DNA of 64,000 bases from Candidatus Saccharimonadota bacterium. Its GTDB lineage: Bacteria > Patescibacteriota > Saccharimonadia > Saccharimonadales > Saccharimonadaceae. Location of the stretch: assembly GCA_027492255.1 (NCBI GenBank), contig JAPUFB010000003.1, positions 201,889-265,888 on the forward strand, read 5' to 3'. Of this stretch, positions 12,049-54,384 are shown in pieces. The translations under genes were made by a program, and so were the position numbers. The first letter of the stretch is position 1. Each line of letters starts with the position of its first letter. Under the pieces are notes generated by a model. The model was not told the DNA's origin. It did no database searches and saw only the letters and a program-made list of their open reading frames with translations.

Positions 12049-13728
12049 ATGAATTTGTTTACTGAAATCAGTCTCGTTCTCGTTATCGTTGCAGTCATCT
12101 CGCTCGTTATGCGTTTATTGCGACAACCGCTTATTATGGGCTATATACTGACAGGGATACTTGTCGGACCGAGCATGCTCAATGTTATTCAGTCGCGCGA
12201 AGCATTTGAGGGTTTTAGCAATATCGGTATCGCGCTTCTTCTGTTTATTATCGGCCTAGGTCTTAACGCCACAATCATAAAAGGACTAGGGAAAGTAGCG
12301 CTCTTTACCTCATTTTCAGTCTTTGTGCTGGTTGGTGTCTTATGTTTTGGTCTCAGCGAATCATTCGGCTTTAGTTTTAAACACGGTATTGTAATCGCAG
12401 CTGCCTTGCTATTTAGCAGCACGATCATCGTTCTTAAGATGCTTTCCGATAAGCGAGAAACGGCGCGTCTGTACGGACAAATTGCTGTTGGTATCCTGCT
12501 CATCGAAGATATTGTCGCAACAGTTGTCATCCTTGGAATCGGCGCAATCGGCACGGCTCATGGACTGCATATCGCAGATATTGCATTACTGCTTGGCAAA
12601 GGTATAGGGTTGGGGTTGACACTCTTTCTCGTTGGGGCATATATTATGCCCCGAATCGTCAAATCCTTCGCAAAAAGCCAAGAGTTTCTCTTTATCTTTA
12701 CGATGGCATGGGCATTTGGTGTTGCTACACTCTTTGATCGCCTCGGTTTATCACATGAAGTTGGCGCATTATTTGCCGGTGTTAGTCTGGCATCATTGCC
12801 TTATGCATCAGAGATGAGCTCCCGACTTAAACCACTTCGAGACTTCTTTATCGTGCTATTCTTCGTCACGCTCGGCAATAGCTTTGCCTTTGATAACTTG
12901 TCAGGCGCACTCATACCTGCCCTTGTCTTGGCTGCAGTTGTCTTAATTGGCAAGCCGTTATTTGTCATGTCGAGCCTTGGTGCACTTGGATATACAAAAC
13001 TGACGAGCTTCAAGACTGCCGTACATCTGTCACAAATCAGCGAATTTTCAATTATCCTAACTGTTTTTGCTATGAAAGTCGGACTTGCGGACGAGCGCGT
13101 CGTTGGTATTGTGACCCTTGTTGCCTTCATCACAATCGGGCTCTCTACATACCTCATGAAGTACGATGATCAACTCTACAGGCTTCTTGAATCACATCTT
13201 GGCTGGTTTGAACGAAAAAATATCCGTGAAAAGATTACCCGTAGCCTCCCGTATACCGCAATCGTTTTCGGCTATCAACACGGCGGTCACGAATTCGTTG
13301 AAACCTTCCGCGCCATGAAGCAGCGCTATTTAGTCGTAGATTATGATCCAGAAATTATTGACTATCTTGACACGCAGGGTATCCGTCATGCATACGGCGA
13401 TGCTACCGATGAAGAATTCCTGGAAGAAATTAATGCTTCAAAAGCAAAGATTGTCGTCAGCACGATGACTGACCACGGCATGAACCAGCTCCTCTTGAAT
13501 TCAATTAGAAAACAAAACTCAGACAATGTCTTTATCTGCCATGCGGATGGATTCGAAGAAGCTGATAGACTCTACGACGCAGGAGCAAGTTATGTAATTC
13601 TACCTCATTTCCTAGGAAGCGAGCGTATTAGTGGCTACATACAAAAACACGGTATCGACAAAAATATGTTCGAAAGTTTCCGTAAAAAACATGTTATCGC
13701 AATCGGAGATCGCGCCCTACGCGGCTAA
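12049..13728 (+). CDS. Kef-type cation:proton antiporter with RCK domain (CPA2)
   Basis: This is a 559-residue monovalent cation/H+ antiporter of the CPA2 family. About 12 membrane helices occupy residues 1-380, and a cytoplasmic TrkA-N/RCK nucleotide-binding domain follows (about 400-525, beginning AIVFGYQHGGHEFVETF). Family members export K+ or Na+ in exchange for protons and are gated by bound nucleotides. The glycine motif GYQHGG departs from GxGxxG, so nucleotide preference is uncertain. There is no C-terminal TrkA-C domain. Its 3' end overlaps the convergent 448-residue gene by 12 bases, so the two transcripts must be antisense at their ends. Confidence 0.9.
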   Translation: MNLFTEISLVLVIVAVISLVMRLLRQPLIMGYILTGILVGPSMLNVIQSREAFEGFSNIGIALLLFIIGLGLNATIIKGLGKVALFTSFSVFVLVGVLCFGLSESFGFSFKHGIVIAAALLFSSTIIVLKMLSDKRETARLYGQIAVGILLIEDIVATVVILGIGAIGTAHGLHIADIALLLGKGIGLGLTLFLVGAYIMPRIVKSFAKSQEFLFIFTMAWAFGVATLFDRLGLSHEVGALFAGVSLASLPYASEMSSRLKPLRDFFIVLFFVTLGNSFAFDNLSGALIPALVLAAVVLIGKPLFVMSSLGALGYTKLTSFKTAVHLSQISEFSIILTVFAMKVGLADERVVGIVTLVAFITIGLSTYLMKYDDQLYRLLESHLGWFERKNIREKITRSLPYTAIVFGYQHGGHEFVETFRAMKQRYLVVDYDPEIIDYLDTQGIRHAYGDATDEEFLEEINASKAKIVVSTMTDHGMNQLLLNSIRKQNSDNVFICHADGFEEADRLYDAGASYVILPHFLGSERISGYIQKHGIDKNMFESFRKKHVIAIGDRALRG

Positions 13729-15063
13729 TATATAGTTGTCTTGAAGTATTATGTCGGTCCGTTTATCTCGAATACAGCGCACCGTACCACCAATCGCGAC
13801 TCGATCTGAAAGAATTGCGTGCTCACCAAACTCTGTTTTAATAATCGCTTCGAACTGAGTGTCAGTAGGCTCAGCTTCAATGACATTCACTATCGTTTCT
13901 GAGTTGTTAGCATGGACTCTCGGCTTCTTTCCGCCATTACCAGTCGATACCACCTCGCCATTCACAACCGACGCCTCACATTCGGTACACATAATACTTG
14001 AGGCACAGGGATCACCGAATTGAGCAGCACCACAGAAAGGACAGTGCATCCAGATTTTTTCGCCGATGCCTTGTTTTGCTAACATTTCTTTCGGGCTCAT
14101 AGTGGACGCTATAGGGCAATCGCCGTTCGCATACTCTTTACCCTCTGCCCGTGCAGCGTCACCGGCATCAGAAAGTGATCCGACAACAGTACCGAGCTGA
14201 TGCGCCTGCTCGATAGCGGCAAGGAAGTTGTAGGTCGCACGTTCGTACTCGGGAGTAAAACGAAAATTAACTCCGTATTTTGTGCGTATTTGTTCAATTT
14301 CGTACACGTGTTCGTTTATGATTGATGGGAATTTTTCGATATATAATTTGGTATCGAGTATTTTTGAATCTTGACGACCCGCATACCACTCACCGCCGTA
14401 CTGTAGTTTCATCGCAGCATCATAGCGCTCTCGAATCACCTTGCTTGGCCGCTCGCCCTTGAGGTCTTGCATATGCCCTAAGAAGTTCATGGCAAGAATA
14501 TCCTCACTCGTCGCAGCATCCGGGATTTCGGCGCCAAACATATCAGCGACCGCCTGCAACGCAACCCTGTCGCCGCCATCAAGCGACATCGAGGTAACCC
14601 GAATCCCGTCGGCCGTTCGTTCCGTAATTCGGACCATTGTTTTCTTACGCGATTTGTCATATGCCTTCAAATCAACCTGTCCACTCAGCACACTATCAGG
14701 TGTTGGCGACATATGCATCAAGATTCCTGAACCCTCCTGATCTGACTGGAAAAATGCAATCTGAGCTCGGAACTGCGCATATTCAATATGGCGTCTGAGC
14801 AGCTCAATTGAAAATTCCGGCCGAATCTTGACAATCTCCTCAGCAGTCTGAATACCATCGAGAAATATTTTCTTTAGGGATTGTCCTTGAAAGAAGAAAT
14901 CTTCATCTTTGTACACGTATTCAAATGTGTTGTGCATTGCACCATCCACGCGTTCTGTTCCTTCAGTGAGAAGATCCGTCCAGAGTCGCTCGCGCTCAAA
15001 CCGACGATGCGTGTCGTATCGGTGCCTTTCCACTGCCCTTCTCTGTATCACCCCTGTTTGCAT
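13717..15063 (-). CDS. lineage-specific protein with zinc ribbon, behind a riboswitch-like leader
   Basis: This is a 448-residue cytoplasmic protein of unknown function. The first ~330 residues are mostly helical and charged. A four-cysteine zinc ribbon, CPFCGAAQ...CTEC (about residues 335-357), follows, and then a beta-rich C-terminal domain. There is no signal peptide or membrane helix. The first ATG directly follows the T-run of a terminator-like hairpin, and a long structured leader precedes it (15064-15300). GTG codons at positions 5 and 11 are alternative starts, the latter behind AGAAGGG. The gene is monocistronic and converges on the Kef-type gene with a 12-base overlap. Confidence 0.65.
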   Translation of the reverse strand: MQTGVIQRRAVERHRYDTHRRFERERLWTDLLTEGTERVDGAMHNTFEYVYKDEDFFFQGQSLKKIFLDGIQTAEEIVKIRPEFSIELLRRHIEYAQFRAQIAFFQSDQEGSGILMHMSPTPDSVLSGQVDLKAYDKSRKKTMVRITERTADGIRVTSMSLDGGDRVALQAVADMFGAEIPDAATSEDILAMNFLGHMQDLKGERPSKVIRERYDAAMKLQYGGEWYAGRQDSKILDTKLYIEKFPSIINEHVYEIEQIRTKYGVNFRFTPEYERATYNFLAAIEQAHQLGTVVGSLSDAGDAARAEGKEYANGDCPIASTMSPKEMLAKQGIGEKIWMHCPFCGAAQFGDPCASSIMCTECEASVVNGEVVSTGNGGKKPRVHANNSETIVNVIEAEPTDTQFEAIIKTEFGEHAILSDRVAIGGTVRCIRDKRTDIILQDNYILAA

Positions 15064-15093: not shown

Positions 15094-15300
15094 AAAAGAA
15101 AATTACCTATAGTATTTCACTTCCTGCTCGGGAAAAGCCTTTTGGAGTCTCCTCTTTTTTAGAAGAGACTCGTAGTGATTTGGCGTTCGGACTTGTCCAA
15201 TATCTACCCCTAGATATATTCGACTCACCGTTGCGGCACAGTTCGTGAATTACACACGATTACCCATCTCACTGGCTATCTGTTTGTTAACAAGGTTGAT
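15064..15300 (-). ncRNA. cobalamin-riboswitch-like leader RNA
   Basis: The ~235 bases before the 448-residue gene hold no reading frame but strong structure. The reverse strand carries, in order, elements matching the cobalamin riboswitch core. GGGTAA is followed by a stem with a TGTAATT loop (15269-15245, family form TGnnAAT). Next is CTGTGCCGCAACGGTGA (about 15241-15225, family form CnGnCCCGCnACnGTnA), a short hairpin, and AAGTCCGAACGCC (15195-15183, resembling the B12 box). AGTGA and TCACT could close the junction. A 10-bp hairpin (15145-15171) and a terminator with a competing antiterminator follow. The family is assigned from remembered consensus, one C is missing in the core, and no covariance search was possible. 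Confidence 0.5.
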
Positions 15301-39806: not shown

Positions 39807-42800
39807 ATGGGTATAAATAGACATCGATTATTTAAGCGACGTTCGTGGCATTTCAACTGGAAGGCCTCCCTTGAACGTATCTCTGCTATTCCAAGACAAT
39901 GGGTTAAGTCGACGAAAAGTGGTAAGGAGTACTTAGCGATTCCATTACCTACACGCCAACAATGGATTCGTATTGGCATCGTCGTTAGCGCTATTCTTCT
40001 TCTCGCACTTGTTGCTGTCCAGCTATACCGCTTCTATGGGCCTCAGAATTATCGCCTCAGCTCTGCCGAAACAATTCTTGCCAGCCCGAGCGACATCCTC
40101 GCGAAGGATCTGAAATACGACACTAAAACTCGCACCTTCTCTTTCTCCCATGGAAGTGCAAACACCTCAGAGACTAGGCAAAATGGAGCAACACTCGTCT
40201 CGGCGACACTCCCTGCCGATGCAACGAAGGGAATTACTGTCACAGACCCGAACTACAAAGTCGATCTTGTGATGAAACCTATTGTCAAAGCGGCAGAGGG
40301 AAAACAGCAACAAAACCGTATCATTTATCCTATTCGCGATCGTAATGGTTGGCTCGTCTATACTGCGCTTGGTACGGGTATTCGAGAAGATATTGTACTA
40401 GCAGAAAATCAAGGTGACTCCTATGCACTATCCTATGATCTCACACTTCCAAACGGTACTGAGGCTCGCAAGGAAACCGATGGTAGTATCGGTATCTACG
40501 GTAACGAGGTATTCATGAGCAACGTTACCGCGGCGAGTGAAGCCGACCAGAGCTTGCTCGAAAAAGCGAGAACAAATGCGGCAAAAAACCTATTATTATT
40601 CACAATTCCAAAACCAGTCGTCATCGAATCAGGAAAGCAGAGCTCCTCAGTTGTTGCCTCGTTTGACCTGAGTGGTACTCGACTTGCAATCAAAGCCACT
40701 GGTCTCGCAAGCGCCTCATACCCACTCACTATCGACCCAAGCATCTATATCGTCACCGCGCAACAATTCATGAATGGCAACAATGAAACGAATATTGACT
40801 TCGATGTTGCTGATAAACTTATTCGCAAAGCCCCTACAACAGGTGCCCGATTCAATAGCTGGAATAGTACTACGCAACTCCCCCTGTCCAACTGGGCAGG
40901 AGGGACAACTATCGCTGGAGGTTACATCTACTCAGCTGGTGGAATTTCATCAAATAGCCAAACTTATTCCACTCAAGGGTCGGGCACATTTACTGTACCG
41001 AGTGGTATTACTTCTATCACTGTTAAGCTCTGGGGTGGTGGTGGTGGAGGTGGCGCTGGTGGCTCAGCGGCAGCAGGTGGCGCCGGTGGTGGCGCTGGTG
41101 AAACTACAGGTACGATTGCGGTTACCCCTGGTGAGACTCTTGATGTATATGTTGGTGGTGGTGGTGCAGCCGGCACGCGCAATACCTCAGGTGGTGGTGG
41201 AGGTGGAGGTGGCTATACGAGCATATATAGGGGCACTACTCTCCTTGCTCTCGCTGCAGGTGGAGGTGGAGGTGGAGGTGGCCGCTCAACTTCGACCCAT
41301 ATCGGTGGAGCTGGTGGCGCGGGCGGTGGTACAAATGGAATAGCCGGTAGCGCATCGCTCACAAATGGCGGTGGTGGTGCGGGTACCTCGTCAGGAGGAC
41401 TTGGTGGAACGAGTACGAGTGGCTTCCCTGGTCAAGCCGGCATCTCACTTGATGGTGGCGCCGGTGCAAATGGTGCAACTACAGCAGGTACAGGCAGTGG
41501 CGCCGCGGGCGGTCTCGCGACAGGTGGTAATGGTGGGTCGGTCACGTCGACGACGCGAGCTGCAGGTGGAGGTGGAGGCTCAGGCTGGTTTGGTGGTGGT
41601 GGTGGCGCTGGTGCAGGTACCGCTGCCGGAGGAGGTGGTGGTGGTGGTGGCTCGAGCTTTGGTACAGGGTTGACGCTCAACGCCGGTTCGGGTAGGACGC
41701 CGGGAAACTCAACTGATACAGATCGCGCAGGCGCAGGTCAGGGTGGAGCCGCAGGCGCGAGGGCAGGCGTTGGTACCGCAGGAAGCACTGGTATTGCTCT
41801 CATCAGTTTTGGTTCAGGTGGTATGGCCGCAAGCGCATCCCTCAACTGGATGCAACTTAGTACGACCGACGGCACCCTGCAGAGTCCAAATCCGGGAGAT
41901 GGCGTATGTAGCGGTTGGTGTACTGACGCGGCGTACAACCTCCCTACTCCTCTCACGAATTTTAGTATGCTTTCCTACAACGGCTTTCTCTATGTCATTG
42001 GTGGCATGAACTCCGCTGGTACCGTACAAAATAGCATTTATGTTGCTAAGCTTGGCGCCAATGGTGAACCACAACTCTGGAACCCAACATGGAACCCGGC
42101 AACTGATCCAACGAAATCAACCTGGTCGTATTGGTACACTAGCACGACTACCCTTTCGAGCGCACGATCAGGAGTACAGGCAGTCGCCTACAATAACCGC
42201 CTCTACGTATCGGGAGGCCGAACAGCGACGGTCGCCGTAAACACCATGGAAATCGCCGATATCCTGCCAACAGGCCAGATAGGCGCATGGTCCAGCGGTA
42301 CCAACCTTCCGTACAACGTCTACAATCATGGCTCATATGTCTACAACGACAGGATTTACATCCTTGGTGGCGCAAGCACGATAGGCGGTGCACCGATCGC
42401 CACAGTATATTACAACAAGATCAACAGCAATGGCACACTTAATACATGGCTCCCTACCACGAGCATGCCAGGCGCGCGCATGAGCAACGGTGGCAACTTC
42501 ACTACTGTGTGGGGTGCGTATGTCTATGTGTCTGGTGGATGTAGCGCCGTCATCGGAGGTGGTAAAGATTACTGCAGTACTATTCTCACAGACTCAGATG
42601 TTGCCAGTATTAACGCAGACGGTAGTATCGATACCTGGAATGCGATTGGCACACTGTCCGATCAACGTACTGGCCAAACACTTCTTGCATGGCGTAACTC
42701 TATTTATCAAATAGGAGGGTGTACGGCACAGAATACGACGACCGGCGCATGCACCACCCCGACAAACGCCGTCAAGTATGGCACCGTAAATCAAGATGGA

Positions 42801-45800
42801 GACGCCTCAACCGTGGGATCATCGGTCGCAAGTGGAACCGCACCCTGCAGTGGCGCGAGCCCTTACGGATGTAACATGCCTGGTGTCGCCTATATCGGTA
42901 ACTTACTCCCCGTGTCATTTATTTCAAATGGCTACCTCTACCTCGTGGGAGGATGTGTCGACAATACCTGTAGTGGTACCGCGTCAGGTAACTCAGCATA
43001 CACGGCTATTTCATCGACGGGAATCATGACCGCACCATCTACCTGCCCTAGTCCGCGAACGATTCAAGGCGGCGCCTGGTGCGTTGACACGACAAATACG
43101 ATCAGTACTGGTGTTGCCGCTGCAAGCCCCGTCGTGTTTAACGGTATCGTCTACCTCGTCGGGGGGCTCAATGGCGGCGGTAATATCGGTAATATCAACT
43201 ACGCGACCATTAGTCAGACCGACGGAAGCCTTAGCTCTTGGACCACACAGGCACTCTCAAGTGTGGGCACTCCTGGAGTAAATAACGTCTCATACCTCCA
43301 TGCATTTGCTCGCGCCAATCCGAGTGGTGCCGGTAGTAATGCACCTGGAAACCTCTATATACTCGGAGGGTGCACTGCGAGTAGCGGCGCCGGCTGTACG
43401 GCGTACAGCGCAAACGTCTACAAATGTACCATCCAGACTGCGGGAGCGATATCAGGCTGTACAATGACTGGCCAACAACAGATTAATAATACTGGCGATA
43501 GCGCGACAGGCCTCGGTATCATGAGCGGGACAGTCTATGCAAACTATATCTATCTAATCGGCGGCGTCACACCAAACCTCGTCGACCTCAAAACTGTCCA
43601 TTACGCAAAAATCGATAACACAAATAATATTGTATCCACGGTGAACGACACGAGTACGGGGGGGTGGGTTGAGTCGCCGCATCAGATGGCAGTCGGTCGT
43701 CGTCGCTCGGCAGCCTTCGGCTACAACGGCTACCTCTACGCGGTCGGCGGATATGAGGCCAGCACCGGTGTTCTCGCCGATATTGAGTTTATTAAGATCA
43801 ATGTGAGCGACGGAAGCTTAGTATCGTCGACAGGCGCCTGGACAGTAAGTGCCGTGCAAATCAATCAGCGATGGGGGTTGACCGTACCGATCAGTAACTC
43901 GTACGCGTATGTCATCGGGGGATGTACGGTTGGTGCAAGCCCAGGAGGGTGTACGACGCGTACTGACGTCATACAAACTTTCCAAGTCTACAACAATGAC
44001 AGTGGTGCGCCCGCTGGCTATTCAGCATCCTCAAATGCCTATACGACCGACCCAAATCGCGTCGGTGCCAGCTCGACGATCATCAACGGTAAGATGTATG
44101 TTGCAGGTGGATGTACGAGTGGAGTTGTTGATTGTGACGCCGCGACAACCAATGTATCGTACACGACGATCGACACAAGTGGCAACCTGGGACCCTGGTC
44201 GAATACGACCGCCGCGCTCCCCGCAGCACGCACCTGGGGTAAACTTGTCAACACAGGAGGAAGTCTCTATTACGTGGGCGGCCAGAGCAGCACTTCAACC
44301 GATGAGCGTGCTGAAGTATACTACGCAACACCAACTGCGGGCGGAGACGTCACATCATGGACAGCTGCAACCAATGGCCTGCCTTCAGCTCGCACAAAGC
44401 TTGGCGCTACCGTCTGGAATAATCGAATCTATGCCGTTGGTGGACTCGACAGCTCGAGTACGACATCGAATACCGTCTATGTCAGTCCGCAGCTAACTAG
44501 TGGCGGAAATATCGGTACCGCCTGGTCGACAGCCTCGACCGCATTTAATGTTGCCCGAAGTGGCGCCGCCGTCACTTCTTACGCAAATAATCTCTATCTA
44601 CTGGGCGGATATAGTGGCGCAAACTATCTGAGTGACGTTCAATACACCCAAATCGATGCCAGTACGGGTCTTGTATCAGGAGCATGGAAATACTCCGAAA
44701 GTCTCCCAAATGCCGTATCTCAAGCCGATAGCTTCGCAGCAAATGGTTACATCTACCTCATGGGGGGCCGTTCAAGTGACACAGCCTGTAGCCGCGACAC
44801 CCTCGTTGCTCCTATTAGCGCTAATACGACAATCGACAGCGGCAATAAGCCGACTGGTGTTGGCGCATGGTACACCACCAATCAACGATTTGTCGGTCCG
44901 CGCTATGGCAATACCGCCGCCTACTACGACGGCAAAGCATATATTACAGGCGGTGCTGATTGTTCAACAGGTGGCACGGCAGCCGGCGCAACCACAACCC
45001 TCTCTACACCCGGCGTCACGACCTACACCGTCCCCGCTGGCGTTACCTATATCAAGGTCAAGACCTGGGGTGCGGGTGGTGGTGGAGGTGGAGGTGCAGT
45101 GACTGGTGCGAATGGAGGTAGTGGAGGTGGAGGTGCCTACGCTACTGGGATTATCCCTGTCACACCAGGCGAAGTCTTGAGCGTCAGTGTCGGCTATGCG
45201 GGACAGGGTGGTGGCAGAAATACTTCAGGCTTCGGTGGTGGAGGTGGAGGTGAATCCGGTATCCGGCGCACAGACGGAGGAAGTACTCCGTTGATTATTG
45301 CAGGAAGTGGCGGCGGTGGAGGTGGTGCAAGAAATGCGAGCGGATCAAGCGGTGGAGCCGGAGGAGCTGCCGGTACGACAACGGGCTCTCCGGGTGCAAG
45401 CGGTGCGGGTACGACACCCTTCGCAGGTGGCGGTGGCGGTGGAACGCAAAGTGCAAGCGGAGCCGCAGGTACGGCAACAGGCGAAGGCAACTCATGTGCC
45501 GCGCAGCTCGGTGGCTACCTAGACGGAGGTCAAGGTGCCGACGGTCGATCGACCGGCGCCTGCACATGGGGCACAGCCGGCAACCATGGTGGTGGGTTTA
45601 TTACAGGTGCTGGTGACGGAGGTAGCGCGATCGCGACTACTCGCTCAGGTGGCGCCGGTGGTGGTAGTGGCTACTATGGCGGCGGTGGCGGTGCAAGTAG
45701 TGGTGCAACCGCGGGTGCCGGTGGTGGCGGTGGAGGTTCAACATATGTCATCCCGTCAGCGCTCAGTATCTCTACGCAAGCCGCAACCACGACAACACCG

Positions 45801-46409
45801 GGTAACTCGGCAGACACCGACAGGGGTGGTGCTGGTAATGGCGGCACTGGTGGTGTTGGCGCAGCATTTGGACTGGCAGGCTCCAATGGTATCGTCCTTA
45901 TTACCCCAGTCATGGTCTATGCGACACCGACAGTCCAGCAAACGGCCCTCTTGTCTCAACCGCAAGTTGCCAAATATTCGATCATGTTCGATACTGACAC
46001 CGACGTCTTCCCAAATTATTGGCTCCTCAATGGTGTCGATAACTCGATTGGTGCTCGCTGGCAACTCAAATATCGCAGCATGGCAAACCAACAAGCGAGT
46101 AGTCTGTGTGCAACAATGACTACATGGGGGCAAGAAACAAACTTCGGCGACGTAGTGCTCGGAACGCCTGGCGTATACACTGTTAAAGATGGCTCTGGTA
46201 CGAATATATCGTGTGGACGCTACTTCTATTTCAATGTCTCAGTTGATAGTTCTCAGGCCTTCGGCTATCCTGATGATGTATCCCGAGGCCCAACAATTAC
46301 TGACCTCACTTTACAATTCACGGCGGATCCGAGTAAACGTCTTATGCACGGACGTACATTTACTGGAGGCTTACAGATGCCTGATGATACTCCTTTATAT
46401 ACTAATTAA
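39807..46409 (+). CDS. giant Kelch-repeat/glycine-rich surface protein (2200 residues)
   Basis: This is a type II membrane protein: a basic cytoplasmic N-terminus (about 1-53), one helix (about 54-75), then an enormous extracellular part. Residues ~80-320 form a lineage-specific domain. Two glycine-rich domains (about 390-680 and 1725-2040) each open with a strand of the type GTFTVPSGITSITVKLWG and continue in Gly-rich runs, as in tail-tip adhesins with polyglycine helices and ALK-type Gly-rich modules. Between them lie many Kelch repeats (for example LYVIGGMNSAGTVQNSIYVA), enough for more than one propeller, with extra Cys pairs. A C-terminal beta domain ends the protein. No sortase motif is visible. 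Adhesion or prey/host contact is inferred. Confidence 0.8.
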   Translation: MGINRHRLFKRRSWHFNWKASLERISAIPRQWVKSTKSGKEYLAIPLPTRQQWIRIGIVVSAILLLALVAVQLYRFYGPQNYRLSSAETILASPSDILAKDLKYDTKTRTFSFSHGSANTSETRQNGATLVSATLPADATKGITVTDPNYKVDLVMKPIVKAAEGKQQQNRIIYPIRDRNGWLVYTALGTGIREDIVLAENQGDSYALSYDLTLPNGTEARKETDGSIGIYGNEVFMSNVTAASEADQSLLEKARTNAAKNLLLFTIPKPVVIESGKQSSSVVASFDLSGTRLAIKATGLASASYPLTIDPSIYIVTAQQFMNGNNETNIDFDVADKLIRKAPTTGARFNSWNSTTQLPLSNWAGGTTIAGGYIYSAGGISSNSQTYSTQGSGTFTVPSGITSITVKLWGGGGGGGAGGSAAAGGAGGGAGETTGTIAVTPGETLDVYVGGGGAAGTRNTSGGGGGGGGYTSIYRGTTLLALAAGGGGGGGGRSTSTHIGGAGGAGGGTNGIAGSASLTNGGGGAGTSSGGLGGTSTSGFPGQAGISLDGGAGANGATTAGTGSGAAGGLATGGNGGSVTSTTRAAGGGGGSGWFGGGGGAGAGTAAGGGGGGGGSSFGTGLTLNAGSGRTPGNSTDTDRAGAGQGGAAGARAGVGTAGSTGIALISFGSGGMAASASLNWMQLSTTDGTLQSPNPGDGVCSGWCTDAAYNLPTPLTNFSMLSYNGFLYVIGGMNSAGTVQNSIYVAKLGANGEPQLWNPTWNPATDPTKSTWSYWYTSTTTLSSARSGVQAVAYNNRLYVSGGRTATVAVNTMEIADILPTGQIGAWSSGTNLPYNVYNHGSYVYNDRIYILGGASTIGGAPIATVYYNKINSNGTLNTWLPTTSMPGARMSNGGNFTTVWGAYVYVSGGCSAVIGGGKDYCSTILTDSDVASINADGSIDTWNAIGTLSDQRTGQTLLAWRNSIYQIGGCTAQNTTTGACTTPTNAVKYGTVNQDGDASTVGSSVASGTAPCSGASPYGCNMPGVAYIGNLLPVSFISNGYLYLVGGCVDNTCSGTASGNSAYTAISSTGIMTAPSTCPSPRTIQGGAWCVDTTNTISTGVAAASPVVFNGIVYLVGGLNGGGNIGNINYATISQTDGSLSSWTTQALSSVGTPGVNNVSYLHAFARANPSGAGSNAPGNLYILGGCTASSGAGCTAYSANVYKCTIQTAGAISGCTMTGQQQINNTGDSATGLGIMSGTVYANYIYLIGGVTPNLVDLKTVHYAKIDNTNNIVSTVNDTSTGGWVESPHQMAVGRRRSAAFGYNGYLYAVGGYEASTGVLADIEFIKINVSDGSLVSSTGAWTVSAVQINQRWGLTVPISNSYAYVIGGCTVGASPGGCTTRTDVIQTFQVYNNDSGAPAGYSASSNAYTTDPNRVGASSTIINGKMYVAGGCTSGVVDCDAATTNVSYTTIDTSGNLGPWSNTTAALPAARTWGKLVNTGGSLYYVGGQSSTSTDERAEVYYATPTAGGDVTSWTAATNGLPSARTKLGATVWNNRIYAVGGLDSSSTTSNTVYVSPQLTSGGNIGTAWSTASTAFNVARSGAAVTSYANNLYLLGGYSGANYLSDVQYTQIDASTGLVSGAWKYSESLPNAVSQADSFAANGYIYLMGGRSSDTACSRDTLVAPISANTTIDSGNKPTGVGAWYTTNQRFVGPRYGNTAAYYDGKAYITGGADCSTGGTAAGATTTLSTPGVTTYTVPAGVTYIKVKTWGAGGGGGGGAVTGANGGSGGGGAYATGIIPVTPGEVLSVSVGYAGQGGGRNTSGFGGGGGGESGIRRTDGGSTPLIIAGSGGGGGGARNASGSSGGAGGAAGTTTGSPGASGAGTTPFAGGGGGGTQSASGAAGTATGEGNSCAAQLGGYLDGGQGADGRSTGACTWGTAGNHGGGFITGAGDGGSAIATTRSGGAGGGSGYYGGGGGASSGATAGAGGGGGGSTYVIPSALSISTQAATTTTPGNSADTDRGGAGNGGTGGVGAAFGLAGSNGIVLITPVMVYATPTVQQTALLSQPQVAKYSIMFDTDTDVFPNYWLLNGVDNSIGARWQLKYRSMANQQASSLCATMTTWGQETNFGDVVLGTPGVYTVKDGSGTNISCGRYFYFNVSVDSSQAFGYPDDVSRGPTITDLTLQFTADPSKRLMHGRTFTGGLQMPDDTPLYTN
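46398..46403 (+). promoter_or_regulatory. -10 box inside the end of the Kelch gene, leaderless
   Basis: TATACT ends seven bases before ATG 46411, within the last codons of the giant gene. Confidence 0.5.
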
Positions 46410-48183: not shown

Positions 48184-49992
48184 TCAAGCCGAGTCGAGAT
48201 TAACAAGGACTGAACTACTGGCAAATTCCTTAGGGAGAATGAGAGTAAATGTACTTCCTTTATCGAGCTTTGATTTAACTAAGATATCGCCACCATGTGC
48301 ATGAGCTATATGGGATGCTAAGAATAACCCAAGTCCACTTCCGCCTTCAGTATGCGATAAGGGGTTATGAAGACGATCAAATCTCCTAAATATCCTCTCA
48401 TAGTACTCTGCCGGGATCCCCACTCCATTATCTGTCATAGACAGAAGGACTGTGTTACTATCTTCTTTCAGCATAATCCTGACCCTGCCACCCTCGTATG
48501 AATATTTAATTGCATTACTCAGGAGATTGTCGATAACCATCATAATATACCGATCATCAGCAACGATTTTATGTGATTTTTTCGTTGTAATCTTAATGTC
48601 TATTTTTTTACTTTTTACTCTTTCATCAGATAGTTCTATCACTTGACGCGTCATGGCTGTCAGATCAAATTCCCTTGGCTCAAGTCGTAGCTGGCCAGCA
48701 TCAATCTTCGATACATACAGCATTTCGTTAATAATCTTTATCTGTCGCTCATTGGCATCGAACGCTTTCTTTGCAATATCCTCTTGTGCGGGAGAAAGCT
48801 TACCAACAATACCTCCCGTTAAGATGCCTAGATATTGTTTAACACCGCTCGCAGGCGTACGGAGTTGATGGGACGTTAGCGCGAGAAGTTCGTCTTTAGT
48901 CCGTTCCATCTCTTTTTCGTACGACGCCTCAACTCGTACGAGTCGCGAAACGAGCACAATAAAGATCCATACACTCAGCACTAGACTTAATACAATACCA
49001 AGCCCAAGGATAACCCATGGAGTTGCTAGTACATTAAACGGCCGTCCGTAACCGGCAGTGCGTATTTGCCAAGTACGGCCATCAATAAGCAAATCCTGTA
49101 CGGATTTTTGCCCATCGACCGAATTTATAGAGTCACCGCTCGCAAATAACGTTACACCTCCAGCAGCCGTTGTATCGCGGAGTTCAATACTACGCGCTTC
49201 GTTCATGATATTTGATTTCTTTAGGTAATTTGCCATAAAATCATACGGCCTCAGTGCAACATACACATAACCAGTTATGTTCTGTTCTCTGTCCTGTTTT
49301 GTTGTCACGACCGAACCAGTCTTATAGATCGGGTAGTAAAGTAGTACGCCTTTTTGCTGAGTATCCTGAGTGAGTGCTTTATCTTGCACAAGTATAACCG
49401 GTTCTGACATCACGACGTGTGCCGTATCTCTCGCTTGTATCATAGCAGCTTGGCGCGTTGGCTCCGAAAACATATCGTAACCAAACGCTTCAAGATTCGC
49501 TCCCTCAAAAGGTTCTATGTAGTCGATGGCTGTATATAGTTCACGATCCATCGATGGCTTGACTGAAAAATCATTAAATCCCTCATTCTTCACTGACTGA
49601 ATAAAGTCGGGAAGCTCGTCTTTAGTCATAACCTTCACATATCCAAGCCCTACACTTGAGGGCAGGAGTTCACGAATCTTCATACTATCATAAAAATATT
49701 TCCAGTCAGCTCGTGTTACTGTGTCCTGTTTTATACCAAAAATACTCGCGGCAGCAAGCAGTACTTTCTCGTAATCCTTTATGTTTTTCTCTGCAAAATC
49801 ACGTGCAACTACCGTTTGATGGTCTAATTGTCGTTGATCATCACGAGTATTCTGAGAGGATAGTGACTGGGAAAAGATGATCGCAAAAATACAGCCCATC
49901 AGAAACAATGAGATTGAGACAACCCCGGCAGTTTTATACGTTGACGCCCAGTTTTTATCTAGACCAATCAGCGATTTTAGCTTATTAATCAT
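48184..49992 (-). CDS. CHASE-domain sensor histidine kinase
   Basis: This is a 602-residue membrane histidine kinase. After a first membrane helix (about 22-42) comes an extracytoplasmic CHASE domain (about 75-260), a ligand-sensing module. A second helix follows (about 325-350), then a HisKA domain with phosphoacceptor His ~375 in LTSHQLRTP, and an HATPase domain with N-box (IDNLLSNAIKYS), G1 (MTDNGVGIP) and G2 (GGSGLGLFLASHI). There is no receiver domain and no adjacent response regulator; the single-domain receiver at 21.8 kb is a candidate partner. TACACT (50000-50005) ends seven bases before its ATG. Confidence 0.92.
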   Translation of the reverse strand: MINKLKSLIGLDKNWASTYKTAGVVSISLFLMGCIFAIIFSQSLSSQNTRDDQRQLDHQTVVARDFAEKNIKDYEKVLLAAASIFGIKQDTVTRADWKYFYDSMKIRELLPSSVGLGYVKVMTKDELPDFIQSVKNEGFNDFSVKPSMDRELYTAIDYIEPFEGANLEAFGYDMFSEPTRQAAMIQARDTAHVVMSEPVILVQDKALTQDTQQKGVLLYYPIYKTGSVVTTKQDREQNITGYVYVALRPYDFMANYLKKSNIMNEARSIELRDTTAAGGVTLFASGDSINSVDGQKSVQDLLIDGRTWQIRTAGYGRPFNVLATPWVILGLGIVLSLVLSVWIFIVLVSRLVRVEASYEKEMERTKDELLALTSHQLRTPASGVKQYLGILTGGIVGKLSPAQEDIAKKAFDANERQIKIINEMLYVSKIDAGQLRLEPREFDLTAMTRQVIELSDERVKSKKIDIKITTKKSHKIVADDRYIMMVIDNLLSNAIKYSYEGGRVRIMLKEDSNTVLLSMTDNGVGIPAEYYERIFRRFDRLHNPLSHTEGGSGLGLFLASHIAHAHGGDILVKSKLDKGSTFTLILPKEFASSSVLVNLDSA

Positions 49993-50077: not shown

Positions 50078-51256
50078 TTATTGACGTCGAATCGTCGAAT
50101 CGTGAACGCGGGTCGGCCGAGCAGGCACTTCTCGTTTCGATGTCATAGGCAGATCATCACCCAGTGATGCCTGGATTTCCTCGAGAGTTTTGGCATTATC
50201 TGGAGTAATTTTCCCAAGTGTGTACTGATAGGCAACATCACTATAAATAATAGTAAACCGAGTTGCGTCTAAACCTGCTGGTGATGATACTATCGGTGAC
50301 TTTAGCTCCTCCTCAAGATTCAGCATATCTTCGAAACTCTTCACCTGGACTATGCTCTTTTTGGAAAGATCTGCTTGATGGGCTGCTCTAATAATAATCC
50401 CATCATGATAGCGATATATTTTCTCAAGCTCACGTTGATACGGTGTTTTAAATATTTGCTTACGAAGACCATATACAAATGACACCAACGAGAGAACGCC
50501 TAACGCTAGTGCACCGTATGTTTCATACTGTGATTGTCTATCGACGCCAGTTTGTATAGAAGCGGTTACAATCTGCTTCGTATCCTGTTTGTCGTATTTC
50601 TGGCTAAGTATAAATATTTGTTCGCCAATAGGCGCCGTTACCGACGCTGTCCGTATATCATTAAATGGTGTTCCGTCGATAATGCCAGACACATTGATCG
50701 TAAACAACACGGTAATATCGCTACTAATCGGCAGTGTCATCGACAGGCGCAATTGTTCAATCATTCTTTTATATTCATCGTAAGAAACATCCGCACTCGG
50801 ATCAAATGTGAGAGATTTTGCAGTCACCGAATCATGTACCGGCTCCTTCACCTGAACTTCCTTCGTCCACACATCTACCGTATCAGCCTCGCTCCCTTTT
50901 GGTGAATATCTGCCTCGAATTATTGCTCGTATATCATATGCATACGAAAGTTTTTGTTCTTCTGACCCAGAAAAGCTGTAATGAAACGTTGTCTTTAATT
51001 TGTCCGTCAGGTCCATAATATACGCACTGTTCTTCCCGGGTCCATTATCATAAAAACTACTTGGAAAATACGTGACACTCTTATCAACAGATTGTTTTAC
51101 TGTATAGCTATATGCGGATGAGACTGGTGTGGTATTTGACCGACGTTTGATGACGTCGTTCGCAAGATAGCCCGCTGCTCCAAGCAGAAATATACCGAGC
51201 ACAACGAAACCGATTGGACGACGTGCATGTTGATGATACTCAGCTAGCTGCGACAT
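50078..51256 (-). CDS. DUF5305-like membrane protein of a SipW locus
   Basis: This is a 392-residue protein with an N-terminal membrane helix (about 15-33), a large extracytoplasmic beta-rich domain (about 45-245, with SYSYTVKQSVDKSVTYFPSS and YDIRAIIRGRY), a second helix (about 252-270) and a cytoplasmic domain (about 275-392). This layout matches DUF5305 proteins, which in archaea and Firmicutes lie beside SipW-type signal peptidases. Its function is unknown; an accessory role in exporting or assembling the fibre subunits encoded just upstream is likely. It starts 11 bases after the peptidase gene. Confidence 0.7.
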   Translation of the reverse strand: MSQLAEYHQHARRPIGFVVLGIFLLGAAGYLANDVIKRRSNTTPVSSAYSYTVKQSVDKSVTYFPSSFYDNGPGKNSAYIMDLTDKLKTTFHYSFSGSEEQKLSYAYDIRAIIRGRYSPKGSEADTVDVWTKEVQVKEPVHDSVTAKSLTFDPSADVSYDEYKRMIEQLRLSMTLPISSDITVLFTINVSGIIDGTPFNDIRTASVTAPIGEQIFILSQKYDKQDTKQIVTASIQTGVDRQSQYETYGALALGVLSLVSFVYGLRKQIFKTPYQRELEKIYRYHDGIIIRAAHQADLSKKSIVQVKSFEDMLNLEEELKSPIVSSPAGLDATRFTIIYSDVAYQYTLGKITPDNAKTLEEIQASLGDDLPMTSKREVPARPTRVHDSTIRRQ

Positions 51257-51267
51257 TGAATAGTTCC

Positions 51268-52449
51268 TTAGTGTTTTTGCGATATCTCACGTAACCAGAC
51301 TGTTGGATAGCCGATGAATGGCACGCTTGAGCGAATAATGCCAATGATGTGAGATTGTGCGACTGGAGGATCACGGCTTGGGTTGTTGTCACCTTTGGTC
51401 GTGAATATGCGGTCACCGCTATCATCTTCTGCTGTATCAATTGCCACCACCCTATGAGTTATTGTTTTCTTATCTGCTTCATATTGTATGATATCGCCTA
51501 TGTTTATGTCCATCGGGTTACGTACCTGCTGCACTACCACCATTGAACCACGACTGAATACCGGCAGCATACTATTGGACATAATCACGACAGGTTTGTA
51601 GGTAAATGCTCCTGTCATGAAAAGAATAAGTGCTATCATAATCAAGCCAAACATAGCATCAAACGCAAATCTTGAATGACGACGATAATGATGACGGGAT
51701 CGTATTTCATCAGTATCGACATTACTGCGATCAACAATGACATAGACAGCCATTGCAAGAATAATTGATGACATGCTCGTCATATACCAGTCGTATTTTG
51801 GAATAATAGGAGGTAAAATAGTTGCCGCTACTATCCCGAGACCATAGACAAGCTGGGAGCTAAGCCCAACAGTCGTTGAGAGATACCCGAGCAGCATGTT
51901 ATTAATGATTGCCGGTACAACAAAGGTAATCAAGAACTTTACTACCTCAACCGCTGAGCTCGTATCTCCTATTTGTAGTAATGCAATTTGTTGCATAGCA
52001 AGAATAAGACTCACTATGATGCCAAACCAAAGAGCATTACGCCTGCCAACAAGGAGTAGTAAACTGTAGCGAATATACTCGATCGCGGCGGCGGTGATAC
52101 CAAATACGCAGATATTCAAAAGGATCGTTTCTATGCTTGAAGCAACTGCATTATGCACAAATGTCACTACTAAGCCAGTTAAAAAGTAGATTACAAACCA
52201 CACCGATATAACAGAACCCACAACGAATGCCTTATCACTCTTGTGCCTCAGTCGGTCGCGTTGACCTCTGAGTATGATATGGGCTCCGATTGCAGCCAGT
52301 CCGGTAAATAATGGTTGCGCGACATACAGTGCATCGTGCGAATCAATAATACCTCCCTGCCACATAAGACGTGGACAAATCGCTGCAACAACTACGATAA
52401 TCAGTAGCTCCCAAGCTGAAGATTTTATAGCAAAAAGCTTTTGAAACAC
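51268..52449 (-). CDS. sipW: SipW-type (ER-type) signal peptidase I with extra membrane helices
   Basis: This is a 393-residue protein. The N-terminal ~265 residues carry about eight membrane helices. The C-terminal third is the S26B signal peptidase: catalytic Ser ~292 in VIMSNSMLPVF, and ITHRVVAI (about 331) with His where bacterial type I enzymes have Lys, the mark of the Ser/His ER-archaeal/SipW class. The final box is FTTKGDNNPSRD. Such enzymes process TasA/camelysin-like proteins, and three likely substrates are encoded directly upstream. The long membrane region is unusual compared with ~190-residue SipW. Confidence 0.85.
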   Translation of the reverse strand: MFQKLFAIKSSAWELLIIVVVAAICPRLMWQGGIIDSHDALYVAQPLFTGLAAIGAHIILRGQRDRLRHKSDKAFVVGSVISVWFVIYFLTGLVVTFVHNAVASSIETILLNICVFGITAAAIEYIRYSLLLLVGRRNALWFGIIVSLILAMQQIALLQIGDTSSAVEVVKFLITFVVPAIINNMLLGYLSTTVGLSSQLVYGLGIVAATILPPIIPKYDWYMTSMSSIILAMAVYVIVDRSNVDTDEIRSRHHYRRHSRFAFDAMFGLIMIALILFMTGAFTYKPVVIMSNSMLPVFSRGSMVVVQQVRNPMDINIGDIIQYEADKKTITHRVVAIDTAEDDSGDRIFTTKGDNNPSRDPPVAQSHIIGIIRSSVPFIGYPTVWLREISQKH

Positions 52450-53262
52450 CTACGCCTTTCCCTTCACCGCTGCAGCAGTTGTTGTCCAGGTAGTCATATT
52501 CGTCGTCACGGTTGTATTGAATTGGTACTGAGCACCGTTCGCAATCGAAATAGCAGCCCCCGTATAGGTGAGTACTGTTGCGGTGCACGTATAAGTAACT
52601 CCCGTGGGTACTGTTGAAGTACATGTTCTTGTCGTTGGAACCGTCACCCGCCACCCACTAATGGGCTGTCCGGAGTTATTCGTGATGGTCACTGTCAAGG
52701 GAAATGCACCGCCTGTTTTTGTCCCCGCTTTAGCAACAACGGTAAGCCCTGTTATTGCGACATAGGTTGTCGCATATGTCGCGGAGATGACGACATTTTG
52801 TGGTACAAAATTAGCGGTTGCGGTTGCAAATCTAATAGGAGTTGTTGCGTTATTAACTACATTTGTACCACCTGCCGCGACTGTAATAGTGTCCGATAAG
52901 GTGATGACATGGGTAGTGTTATTGATTGAGCAGGTGATAGTTGTTGGACATGTCACTGTCGTGACATCTGCTGGTACGGTAAATTGTACATTCCAGGCGG
53001 TGATCGAGGTCACCCCGTTGTTCTTGATTGTCATCGGATTGAGTGAATATGTGTATTTACTCGCCGCAAAGGTGAATGACTTTGTATATGTTACTGTTGT
53101 GTAGTTATTCGAGACATAAGCAACACTCGACTCATTACCGTTGACTGTCAGATCTTGACTAAAAAGTGCATAGCTCATGCCTGTTATAAACATTGGCATA
53201 GTCAGCAGTAAACCAAGTTGTCGTAGTAGCGGATTCCGTCGCCTGAGCCGTCTTATACCCAC
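52450..53262 (-). CDS. exported protein with CBM2-like domains, probable SipW substrate
   Basis: This is a 270-residue protein with an Arg-rich N-terminus (GIRRLRRRNPLLRQ), a hydrophobic stretch (about 17-33) and SYALFSQDLTVNG, which resembles the cleavage region of the two TasA-like proteins upstream. Two carbohydrate-binding-module-2-like beta-sandwiches follow: the first contains TIKNNGVTSITAWNVQFTVP (about 75), the second VTITNNSGQPISGWRVTVP (about 190). Each has a Cys pair. It probably decorates the fibre or fixes it to a glycan surface. It ends directly at the peptidase start (one-base spacing). Confidence 0.7.
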   Translation of the reverse strand: MGIRRLRRRNPLLRQLGLLLTMPMFITGMSYALFSQDLTVNGNESSVAYVSNNYTTVTYTKSFTFAASKYTYSLNPMTIKNNGVTSITAWNVQFTVPADVTTVTCPTTITCSINNTTHVITLSDTITVAAGGTNVVNNATTPIRFATATANFVPQNVVISATYATTYVAITGLTVVAKAGTKTGGAFPLTVTITNNSGQPISGWRVTVPTTRTCTSTVPTGVTYTCTATVLTYTGAAISIANGAQYQFNTTVTTNMTTWTTTAAAVKGKA

Positions 53263-53278
53263 CGATTAACTCCACGCG

Positions 53279-53773
53279 TTAGTTTTGTATATAATTAAAA
53301 TTAATCGTCGCCGCTTTTGATGCACCGCTAGGATTAGTTGTGGCACTTGCTGCCCATACCACAGTCACTGTTGCTGTTGCTGTTGCATTCGGAGCAAGCG
53401 TATCATTCACAGCAACACCTGTTATTGAATAGGTGAGGTACGCTGGCGCTGCTGCATTAAGCGTCGTCAGGTCAGTAATTGTACTGAGTTTGGCGTTGAT
53501 ATTTCCTTGATTTTTTATTGCCACCTGATACGACGATGTTGCACCTGGATAACCCAATCCAACATTGAAAGTTGCCGAGGTAGTAGTAAAGGATGGTGCT
53601 ACCTGGTCAGTTGCTCCAACCTGCCCTGTTGCGGTGATGCTGATAATTCTCACATCCCAGTTACCTGTTGCCGTACCCGTACCATTGATAGTAAGAGTTG
53701 ACGCAAAGGAAGCATAAGCCACTGATGCGAAGCTAATCAGGACAATGGCGATAGGGAGAAACTTGTTTTTCAT
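53279..53773 (-). CDS. TasA/camelysin-like fibre subunit, paralogue 1
   Basis: This is a 164-residue exported protein with a signal peptide (KNKFLPIAIVLISFASVAYA) directly followed by SFASTLTINGTGTATGNWDV, then a single beta-sandwich of Ig-like topology (about 28-164) with a hydrophobic strand GYPGATSSYQVAIKNQGNI. The combination of short signal, beta-sandwich and neighbouring SipW is that of TasA/CalY family subunits, which polymerise by donating their N-terminal strand. It has 17 bases to the CBM2-like gene. It contains no cysteine, unlike the WxL-like proteins. Confidence 0.72.
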   Translation of the reverse strand: MKNKFLPIAIVLISFASVAYASFASTLTINGTGTATGNWDVRIISITATGQVGATDQVAPSFTTTSATFNVGLGYPGATSSYQVAIKNQGNINAKLSTITDLTTLNAAAPAYLTYSITGVAVNDTLAPNATATATVTVVWAASATTNPSGASKAATINFNYIQN

Positions 53774-53833
53774 GTTTATATACGTTCCTTAATACCAATT
53801 ATACAACAGTAGTACGCATACACAATAAACAGA

Positions 53834-53861
53834 GTACTCCTCAGCAATGACTGAGGAGTAC
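53834..53861 (-). terminator. hairpin between the two TasA-like genes
   Basis: GTACTCCTCAG and CTGAGGAGTAC form an 11-bp perfect stem with a six-base loop after the first fibre gene. Only a weak T-rich tail follows, so it may be a partial terminator or RNA processing site that makes the first subunit more abundant. Confidence 0.6.
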
Positions 53862-53883
53862 AGCTTATTCATCACTAGTCTTT

Positions 53884-54384
53884 TTAGGTATTTTGGACGT
53901 AGTTGAAGTCAATAGTAACAGCTTTTGATTGCGTGGTAATATTTGTAGTACTACCAGCAACCCATGTCACAGTCACTGTTGCTGTCGTTGAAGCCCCCGC
54001 TGCAAGCGTATCATTAACTGCAACGCCGCTTATGCTATAGGTGATATCGACTGGTGACTCAGCGTTTTTTGCGGCGAGATTAGTAAGGGTATCAAGTTTT
54101 GCTGGGATGCTCCCTTGATTTTCGATAACAACATCATAGGTTGACGTTGCGCCAGGATACGCAAGGTCAACATTGAATGTTGCGGACGTTGCTGTAAAAC
54201 TTGGTGTTGTCGCGTGGTCAGTTGCACCGGTTTGATTTTTTGCTGTGATGCTCGTAATCTGAATATCCCAGGTACCCGTTGCGGTACCGGTACCATTGAT
54301 AGTAAGGAGCTGAGCGAAGGCGGCGTAAGCGACTGAGGCAAGCGCAACCACGACGACAGCGGCTACTAATAGTTTGTTTCTCAT
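53884..54384 (-). CDS. TasA/camelysin-like fibre subunit, paralogue 2 (first gene of the locus)
   Basis: This is a 166-residue paralogue of the next gene product, with the same signal peptide ending ASVAYA, the start FAQLLTINGTGTATGTWDI, and similar segments such as YPGATSTYDVVIENQGSIPA and TYSISGVAVNDTLAAGA throughout. It is the first gene of the fibre locus. TATAAA followed by AAGGA precedes its ATG by about 18 and 11 bases. The following hairpin would make it the most expressed subunit. No cysteines. Confidence 0.72.
   Translation of the reverse strand: MRNKLLVAAVVVVALASVAYAAFAQLLTINGTGTATGTWDIQITSITAKNQTGATDHATTPSFTATSATFNVDLAYPGATSTYDVVIENQGSIPAKLDTLTNLAAKNAESPVDITYSISGVAVNDTLAAGASTTATVTVTWVAGSTTNITTQSKAVTIDFNYVQNT

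Follow-up and report, generated by a model that had tools for sequence, protein, structure and literature searches.

The tapA-sipW-tasA operon of Bacillus subtilis is the precedent for the genetic organization of a TasA fibre, and the N-terminus of TapA resembles the TasA donor strand (PMC9674648). The sipW-bsaABCRSD operon of Clostridium perfringens encodes a SipW-dependent polymerising matrix protein, secreted accessory proteins and a two-component system (PMC7395162). Archaeal bundling pili are related to TasA and ABPx has been termed a donor-strand-exchanged fibre (PMC11952670). The present work describes a five-gene cassette of comparable composition in a Candidatus Saccharimonadota bacterium (GenBank assembly GCA_027492255.1), an ultra-small member, of parasitic type, of the candidate phyla radiation (CPR) whose genome comprises 854,584 bp in six contigs and is 99.45% complete. 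The DNA analysed, referred to below as the window, is a 64,000-nucleotide stretch of contig JAPUFB010000003.1 (positions 201,889 to 265,888). The cassette is considered, with a probability of roughly 0.77, to be an operon whose products would build a TasA-type surface fibre by donor-strand exchange, known here from its genes and predicted folds. Its components are listed below with their lengths in amino acids (aa).

53884-54384, minus strand: tasA1, first TasA-type fibre subunit and predicted major one (166 aa; open reading frame, 65% identity to tasA2, AbpX profile match, AlphaFold2 confidence score (pLDDT) of 92.3)
53279-53773, minus strand: tasA2, second TasA-type subunit (164 aa; open reading frame, 65% identity to tasA1)
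52450-53262, minus strand: putative CBM2-like minor subunit (270 aa; two beta-sandwich repeats behind a SipW-type signal and an N-terminus that resembles a donor strand)
51268-52449, minus strand: membrane-fused Ser/His signal peptidase of the endoplasmic reticulum (ER) type (393 aa; TIGR02228, SEC11 homology, count of transmembrane (TM) helices)
50078-51256, minus strand: DUF5305 protein (392 aa; PF17231, AlphaFold2 model, position directly after the peptidase gene in all 80 relatives)

These genes had been proposed as a contiguous fibre locus by an earlier reading made from the letters alone (the sequence-only reading), and all five open reading frames are indeed present and co-directional. 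They are transcribed from the minus strand in the order tasA1, tasA2, CBM2-like, peptidase and DUF5305, with gaps of 16, 0 and 11 bp among the last four. As in the tapA-sipW-tasA and sipW-bsa operons, a subunit gene, a dedicated SipW-type peptidase and a minor secreted protein share one operon, and this composition is kept in relatives. The donor-strand fibre is favoured because the cassette order is conserved, the N-terminus of the subunits is free and conserved, the subunit family matches AbpX and can be aligned with TasA, operon precedents exist and a separate housekeeping signal peptidase is encoded elsewhere in the genome.

The resemblance to B. subtilis (TasA structure 8AUR) extends to a small secreted beta-sandwich subunit, whose short signal is followed by a free N-terminal strand, to a dedicated Ser/His peptidase and to an additional minor protein whose N-terminus is donor-strand-like. 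The cassette nevertheless differs from the known operons in four respects. The subunits are shorter, with 145 mature residues versus 234 in TasA, and fall outside the TasA/camelysin family PF12389. The peptidase carries about seven TM helices that are extra with respect to SipW, and its score against the SipW equivalog model NF046067 (57.3 bits) lies below the cut-off of 190. The minor protein, unlike TapA, has CBM2-fold domains. Finally, the cassette includes an obligatory DUF5305 partner, which is absent from the B. subtilis control genome. Three members of the window's subunit family weakly match the BsaA model TIGR04090, a likeness to C. perfringens, whereas neither DUF5305 nor a membrane-fused peptidase has been described for that operon. 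By sequence profile, no solved subunit is closer than AbpX, which belongs to the AbpA/AbpX pili of the archaea Pyrobaculum and Pyrodictium. Chaperone-usher (FimG-type) pili share the principle of an incomplete immunoglobulin (Ig)-like fold completed by the strand of a neighbour, and 3bfq and 6fq0 are weak structural matches; they rely, however, on an outer-membrane usher and a chaperone, neither of which occurs here, and show no sequence kinship.

The N-terminal region of the subunits carries most of the argument for donor-strand exchange, and its two segments in TasA1 are as follows.

54322-54384, minus strand: TasA1 signal peptide, residues 1-21, MRNKLLVAAVVVVALASVAYA, predicted to be cut after AYA and followed by AFAQ
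54274-54321, minus strand: putative donor strand AFAQLLTINGTGTATG, residues 1-16 of mature TasA1, unfolded in the AlphaFold2 monomer and conserved

The cut was positioned by analogy, because mature TasA starts with AFND. In the AlphaFold2 monomer of mature TasA1 (pLDDT 92.3), a beta-sandwich is formed from residue 20 onward and residues 1-19 lie outside the predicted fold, with a pLDDT of 50 for residues 1-10 and of 75 for residues 11-20. This segment has an information content of 2.12 bits in the subunit family, versus 1.51 for the body of the protein; F2, L6, I8 and G10 are prominent and an alternating hydrophobic pattern, F-x-x-x-L-x-I-x-G, is apparent. The same motif opens the mature CBM2-like protein and the proteins of 580-880 aa found in related operons (for example YALFSQDLTVNG, GYALLQTTLSIGG and GFARYNRILQLGG). 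It is kept ten residues past the cut, on differing bodies, while cleavage needs only the residues adjacent to the cut, and this fits a shared donor strand as the role of the free N-terminus of TasA1 and TasA2. The free N-terminus that the sequence-only reading had looked to is thus both predicted (residues 1-19 of the model) and strongly conserved.

The profile of the subunit family (84 members) matches AbpX among 177,635 PDB sequences (9sj2, E 2.2e-5; 9rhp, 4.1e-4). Comparison with TasA (8AUR sequence) using hhalign gave a P of 8e-4, the two being aligned on PGDxxTxxFxxxNxG, and four of the 84 members weakly match PF12389 (best E 8e-4). A fold kinship of TasA1 and TasA2 with TasA is inferred from these profile comparisons. 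Several results weigh against the fibre reading. Neither subunit matches PF12389 at E<=10, nor does any other protein of the genome. A Foldseek search with the TasA1 model returned no match at 1e-3, the best hits being generic beta-sandwiches (E 0.014), and TasA was not among the 50 best matches. The subunit profile itself was built up by iteration and its remotest members could be drift. A FimG/donor-strand complex appeared in the same Foldseek list at E 0.13, and the NCBIfam models of SipW-type signals had no match among the window proteins. Of the proposal of two paralogous TasA/camelysin-like subunits, the paralogy (65% identity) therefore stands and is joined by the AbpX match, while the family membership does not: both proteins are TasA-type subunits outside PF12389.

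The peptidase is composed of about seven TM helices (residues 1-265) followed by an S26 peptidase domain (residues 266-393). The match to TIGR02228, the model for ER/archaeal-type signal peptidase I, is confined to residues 269-386 and scores 86.4 bits (cut-off 51.85); homology to SEC11 reaches an E of 1e-19. Ser293 and His332 are invariant in the family alignment, and the S-x-S-M and H-R motifs are visible in the homologues wherever the displayed stretch reaches them. The description as a Ser/His SipW-type peptidase with an extra membrane part of about 265 residues is borne out by these data. For the part corresponding to residues 1-265, none of seven homologues had a Pfam match. An ordinary Ser/Lys signal peptidase (SPase I) is encoded separately in the source genome, at C4:236821, which argues for the membrane-fused Ser/His enzyme being dedicated to the cassette.

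The presence of a DUF5305-like protein was likewise correctly recognized, PF17231 being matched at 68.7 bits (cut-off 29). The AlphaFold2 model (pLDDT 88.5) comprises a TM segment (15-40), a beta ectodomain (49-229), a TM helix (232-268) and a cytosolic alpha/beta domain (272-348). Foldseek retrieved generic Ig-like folds alone (best 1.5e-3), and the family profile had a single weak match in the PDB, chain sc-CC-6-95, over the helix region (E 0.0018). No paper naming DUF5305 was found in our literature search. The protein is most likely a membrane anchor or an assembly partner of the peptidase, which is the most economical role.

The third gene encodes two beta-sandwich repeats, the first of CBM2 fold, behind a SipW-type signal and a donor-strand-like N-terminus (ALFSQDLTVNG); the signal region had been called similar to that of the subunits, and the N-terminus is of the same kind. 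The window protein scores 18.8 against CBM_2 (PF00553), below the cut-off of 24, and its relatives L031 (28.2) and L045 (33.7) score above it. The family profile matches the chitin- and cellulose-binding structures of ChiC (2rtt, 5e-8) and Cex (1exg, 5e-7), and the first domain is a genuine CBM2 homologue. In CBM2 domains, surface tryptophans bind polysaccharide. The two Trp visible in the aligned stretch of 1exg and 2rtt correspond to non-aromatic residues here, and the only invariant positions of the family are one core Trp per repeat (W90, W204) and one Cys pair. Glycan binding is therefore unsupported by the sequence, and the suggestion that the fibre carries glycan-binding modules reduces to a CBM2-fold domain devoid of conserved binding-face tryptophans. 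A candidate minor fibre subunit, by analogy with TapA, is the better description of this protein. Larger proteins, 580-880 aa long, share its kind of signal and donor-strand-like N-terminus; they lie beside the cassette in gut Saccharibacteria and Bacilli and look like tip adhesins:

L075, 8076-10559; L079, 8024-10534; L102, 8195-10343; and others: multidomain proteins sharing their N-terminus with the subunits

The distribution of the cassette was examined at several taxonomic levels. Within the order, 6 of 198 genomes carry relatives of TasA1, and within the phylum DUF5305 is encoded by 3 of 380, so that the cassette is rare in CPR. At least four further genera of the family show this gene arrangement; G149, G121 and G192 have the subunit gene or genes, the CBM2-like gene, the peptidase and DUF5305 in succession, and the CBM2-like gene is lacking in G135 and G169. 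When 84,980 species genomes were scanned with the peptidase family, 80 loci were retrieved, mainly from uncultured gut Bacilli and Clostridia, in addition to Saccharibacteria. TasA-like genes are present in 77 of them, usually one to four immediately upstream of the peptidase. DUF5305 was no part of the query and lies directly downstream of the peptidase in all 80 loci (at less than 100 bp in nearly all), 68 of 69 relatives matching PF17231; the peptidase-DUF5305 pair therefore constitutes an invariant core. The cassette is not special to CPR, most of its relatives belonging to gut Bacilli and Clostridia. TasA1 had no plasmid match that would indicate a plasmid origin. No paper joining Saccharibacteria with TasA-like fibres was found in the literature covered, which did not extend to the AbpA paper and its possible list of bacterial relatives.

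In a tree of 79 peptidases, Saccharibacteria appear in three positions that well-supported branches keep apart; one of these positions is held by the single sequence L064, a possible binning error. A single clade for the Saccharibacteria minus L064 is rejected (approximately unbiased test, p 0.0007). The branch leading to the clade of the window's peptidase is long. The simplest reading of this tree is horizontal movement, in no assigned direction, between Firmicutes and Saccharibacteria. L064 itself is a contig of a metagenome-assembled genome labelled Saccharibacteria whose peptidase groups with Erysipelotrichaceae, by transfer or binning error. One Bacilli locus (L052, 4686-11635) carries two complete peptidase-DUF5305 pairs at different tree positions, one of them sister to the gut Saccharibacteria clade.

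An additional element separates the two subunit genes.

53834-53861, minus strand: perfect hairpin of 12 bp in the tasA1-tasA2 gap, followed by a T-rich tail (z -4.0)

Hairpins of 9-14 bp occupy the same site in every other two-subunit locus of the clade that was checked (L015, L016/L026, L025, L029), and their sequences differ between lineages despite the shared position. Among all relatives, a stem of at least 8 bp follows the subunit gene in 28 of 96 gaps, versus 0.8% in shuffles, a count to which ordinary terminators would contribute too. The tasA1-tasA2 hairpin is a probable attenuator that would lower downstream expression.

The proposed mechanism can be briefly summarized as follows. 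TasA1, the main subunit, and TasA2 would be substrates of Sec export, and the dedicated membrane-fused peptidase would cleave them after Ala-Tyr-Ala, freeing the N-terminal strand AFAQLLTING. Each subunit would be a beta-sandwich one strand short, and the fibre would grow as the freed strand fills the groove of a neighbour. The CBM2-fold protein, with its strand of the same kind, would join as a minor subunit at the base, cap or tip. DUF5305, with its two membrane helices, outside beta domain and cytosolic domain, may serve the peptidase as anchor or assembly partner, and the hairpin, acting as a partial terminator, would ensure an excess of the main subunit. What is said here on polymerisation, on the individual minor parts and on surface attachment is put forward on an inferential footing. 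More tentatively, and with the odds rather against it, peptidase and DUF5305 may form a single membrane machine responsible for cutting the subunits, handing them over and anchoring or nucleating the growing fibre; this would represent a separate biogenesis class, widespread in uncultured gut Firmicutes and acquired repeatedly by Saccharibacteria, maybe for host contact.

As to the function of such a fibre, a role in biofilm matrix or cell-cell aggregation with no specific host binding, as for Bacillus TasA and C. perfringens BsaA, has a chance only a little short of even. This is the function of the best-studied relatives of the arrangement (PMC9674648, PMC7395162), and the cassette, rare and laterally moved, is broadly spread in gut Firmicutes; its rarity in the phylum together with this wide occurrence argues for a general adhesion or matrix role. 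It would, however, be an odd system for a 0.85-Mb genome. Host attachment by the fibre is a fair hypothesis, Saccharibacteria having to hold on to their hosts (PMC12206443). A specific form of the proposal made in the sequence-only reading, with a CBM2-like tip protein that binds cell-wall polysaccharide of the host bacterium, is rather unlikely: the CBM2 homology and the adhesin-like multidomain proteins of related operons speak for it, as does the need for host contact, but the binding-face Trp are replaced, the sole invariant Trp of each repeat lies in a core motif, most relatives are gut Bacilli and Clostridia of free-living type and the source genome also encodes type IV pilus-type ATPases. 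Finally, secreted or surface Ig-like proteins that are processed by a special peptidase and never polymerise would account for the generic matches of single family members (weak, and best to DUF7507, CARDB and DUF11) and for the lack of a significant Foldseek match, but this is improbable given the AbpX profile match and an unfolded, alternating-hydrophobic N-terminus that is conserved, superfluous for cleavage and common to proteins with other bodies.

A number of neighbouring genes were also recorded. A histidine kinase follows the cassette in the window:

48184-49992, minus strand: CHASE-domain histidine kinase, outside the conserved cassette

It was rejected as an operon member, other genes occupying its place in L015, L016 and L017; in contrast to the two-component system of the C. 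perfringens operon, it is not conserved with the cassette. A LexA-like repressor gene, recognized by its sequence start, lies directly downstream of DUF5305 in L016, L017, L025, L026 and L031. The gene directly upstream of the subunit gene passes the Wzy_C model (O-antigen ligase, PF04932) in L016 (9406-10719) and L017 (5837-7111), and a similar gene, judged by sequence start, is upstream of tasA1 in L025, L026, L029 and L031; such genes might point to fibre glycosylation. The sole Wzy_C gene of the source genome is located 22 kb from the cassette (C3:278419). The window further encodes, at 39807-46409 on the plus strand, a membrane-anchored protein of 2200 aa with Kelch propellers and two glycine-rich domains, possibly a giant surface adhesin; in L015, part of a similar protein and the three small genes that come after it adjoin the cassette as well. 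An AdoCbl-II (B12) riboswitch (15173-15274, minus strand; 37.3 against a gathering score of 36.5) precedes a 448-aa gene of no assigned function (13717-15063), which is unusual for a reduced CPR genome.

The TasA-type operon described here would add a possible second class of surface fibre to the type IV pili of CPR bacteria. DUF5305 gains a consistent context: all relatives identified carry it beside a SipW-type peptidase fused to membrane helices. Because the cassette is compact, seems to have moved laterally and is preserved in lineages ranging from gut Bacilli to Saccharibacteria, it is amenable to testing in simple recombinant systems, while its role in episymbiosis could be tested in a cultured Saccharibacterium that carries it.

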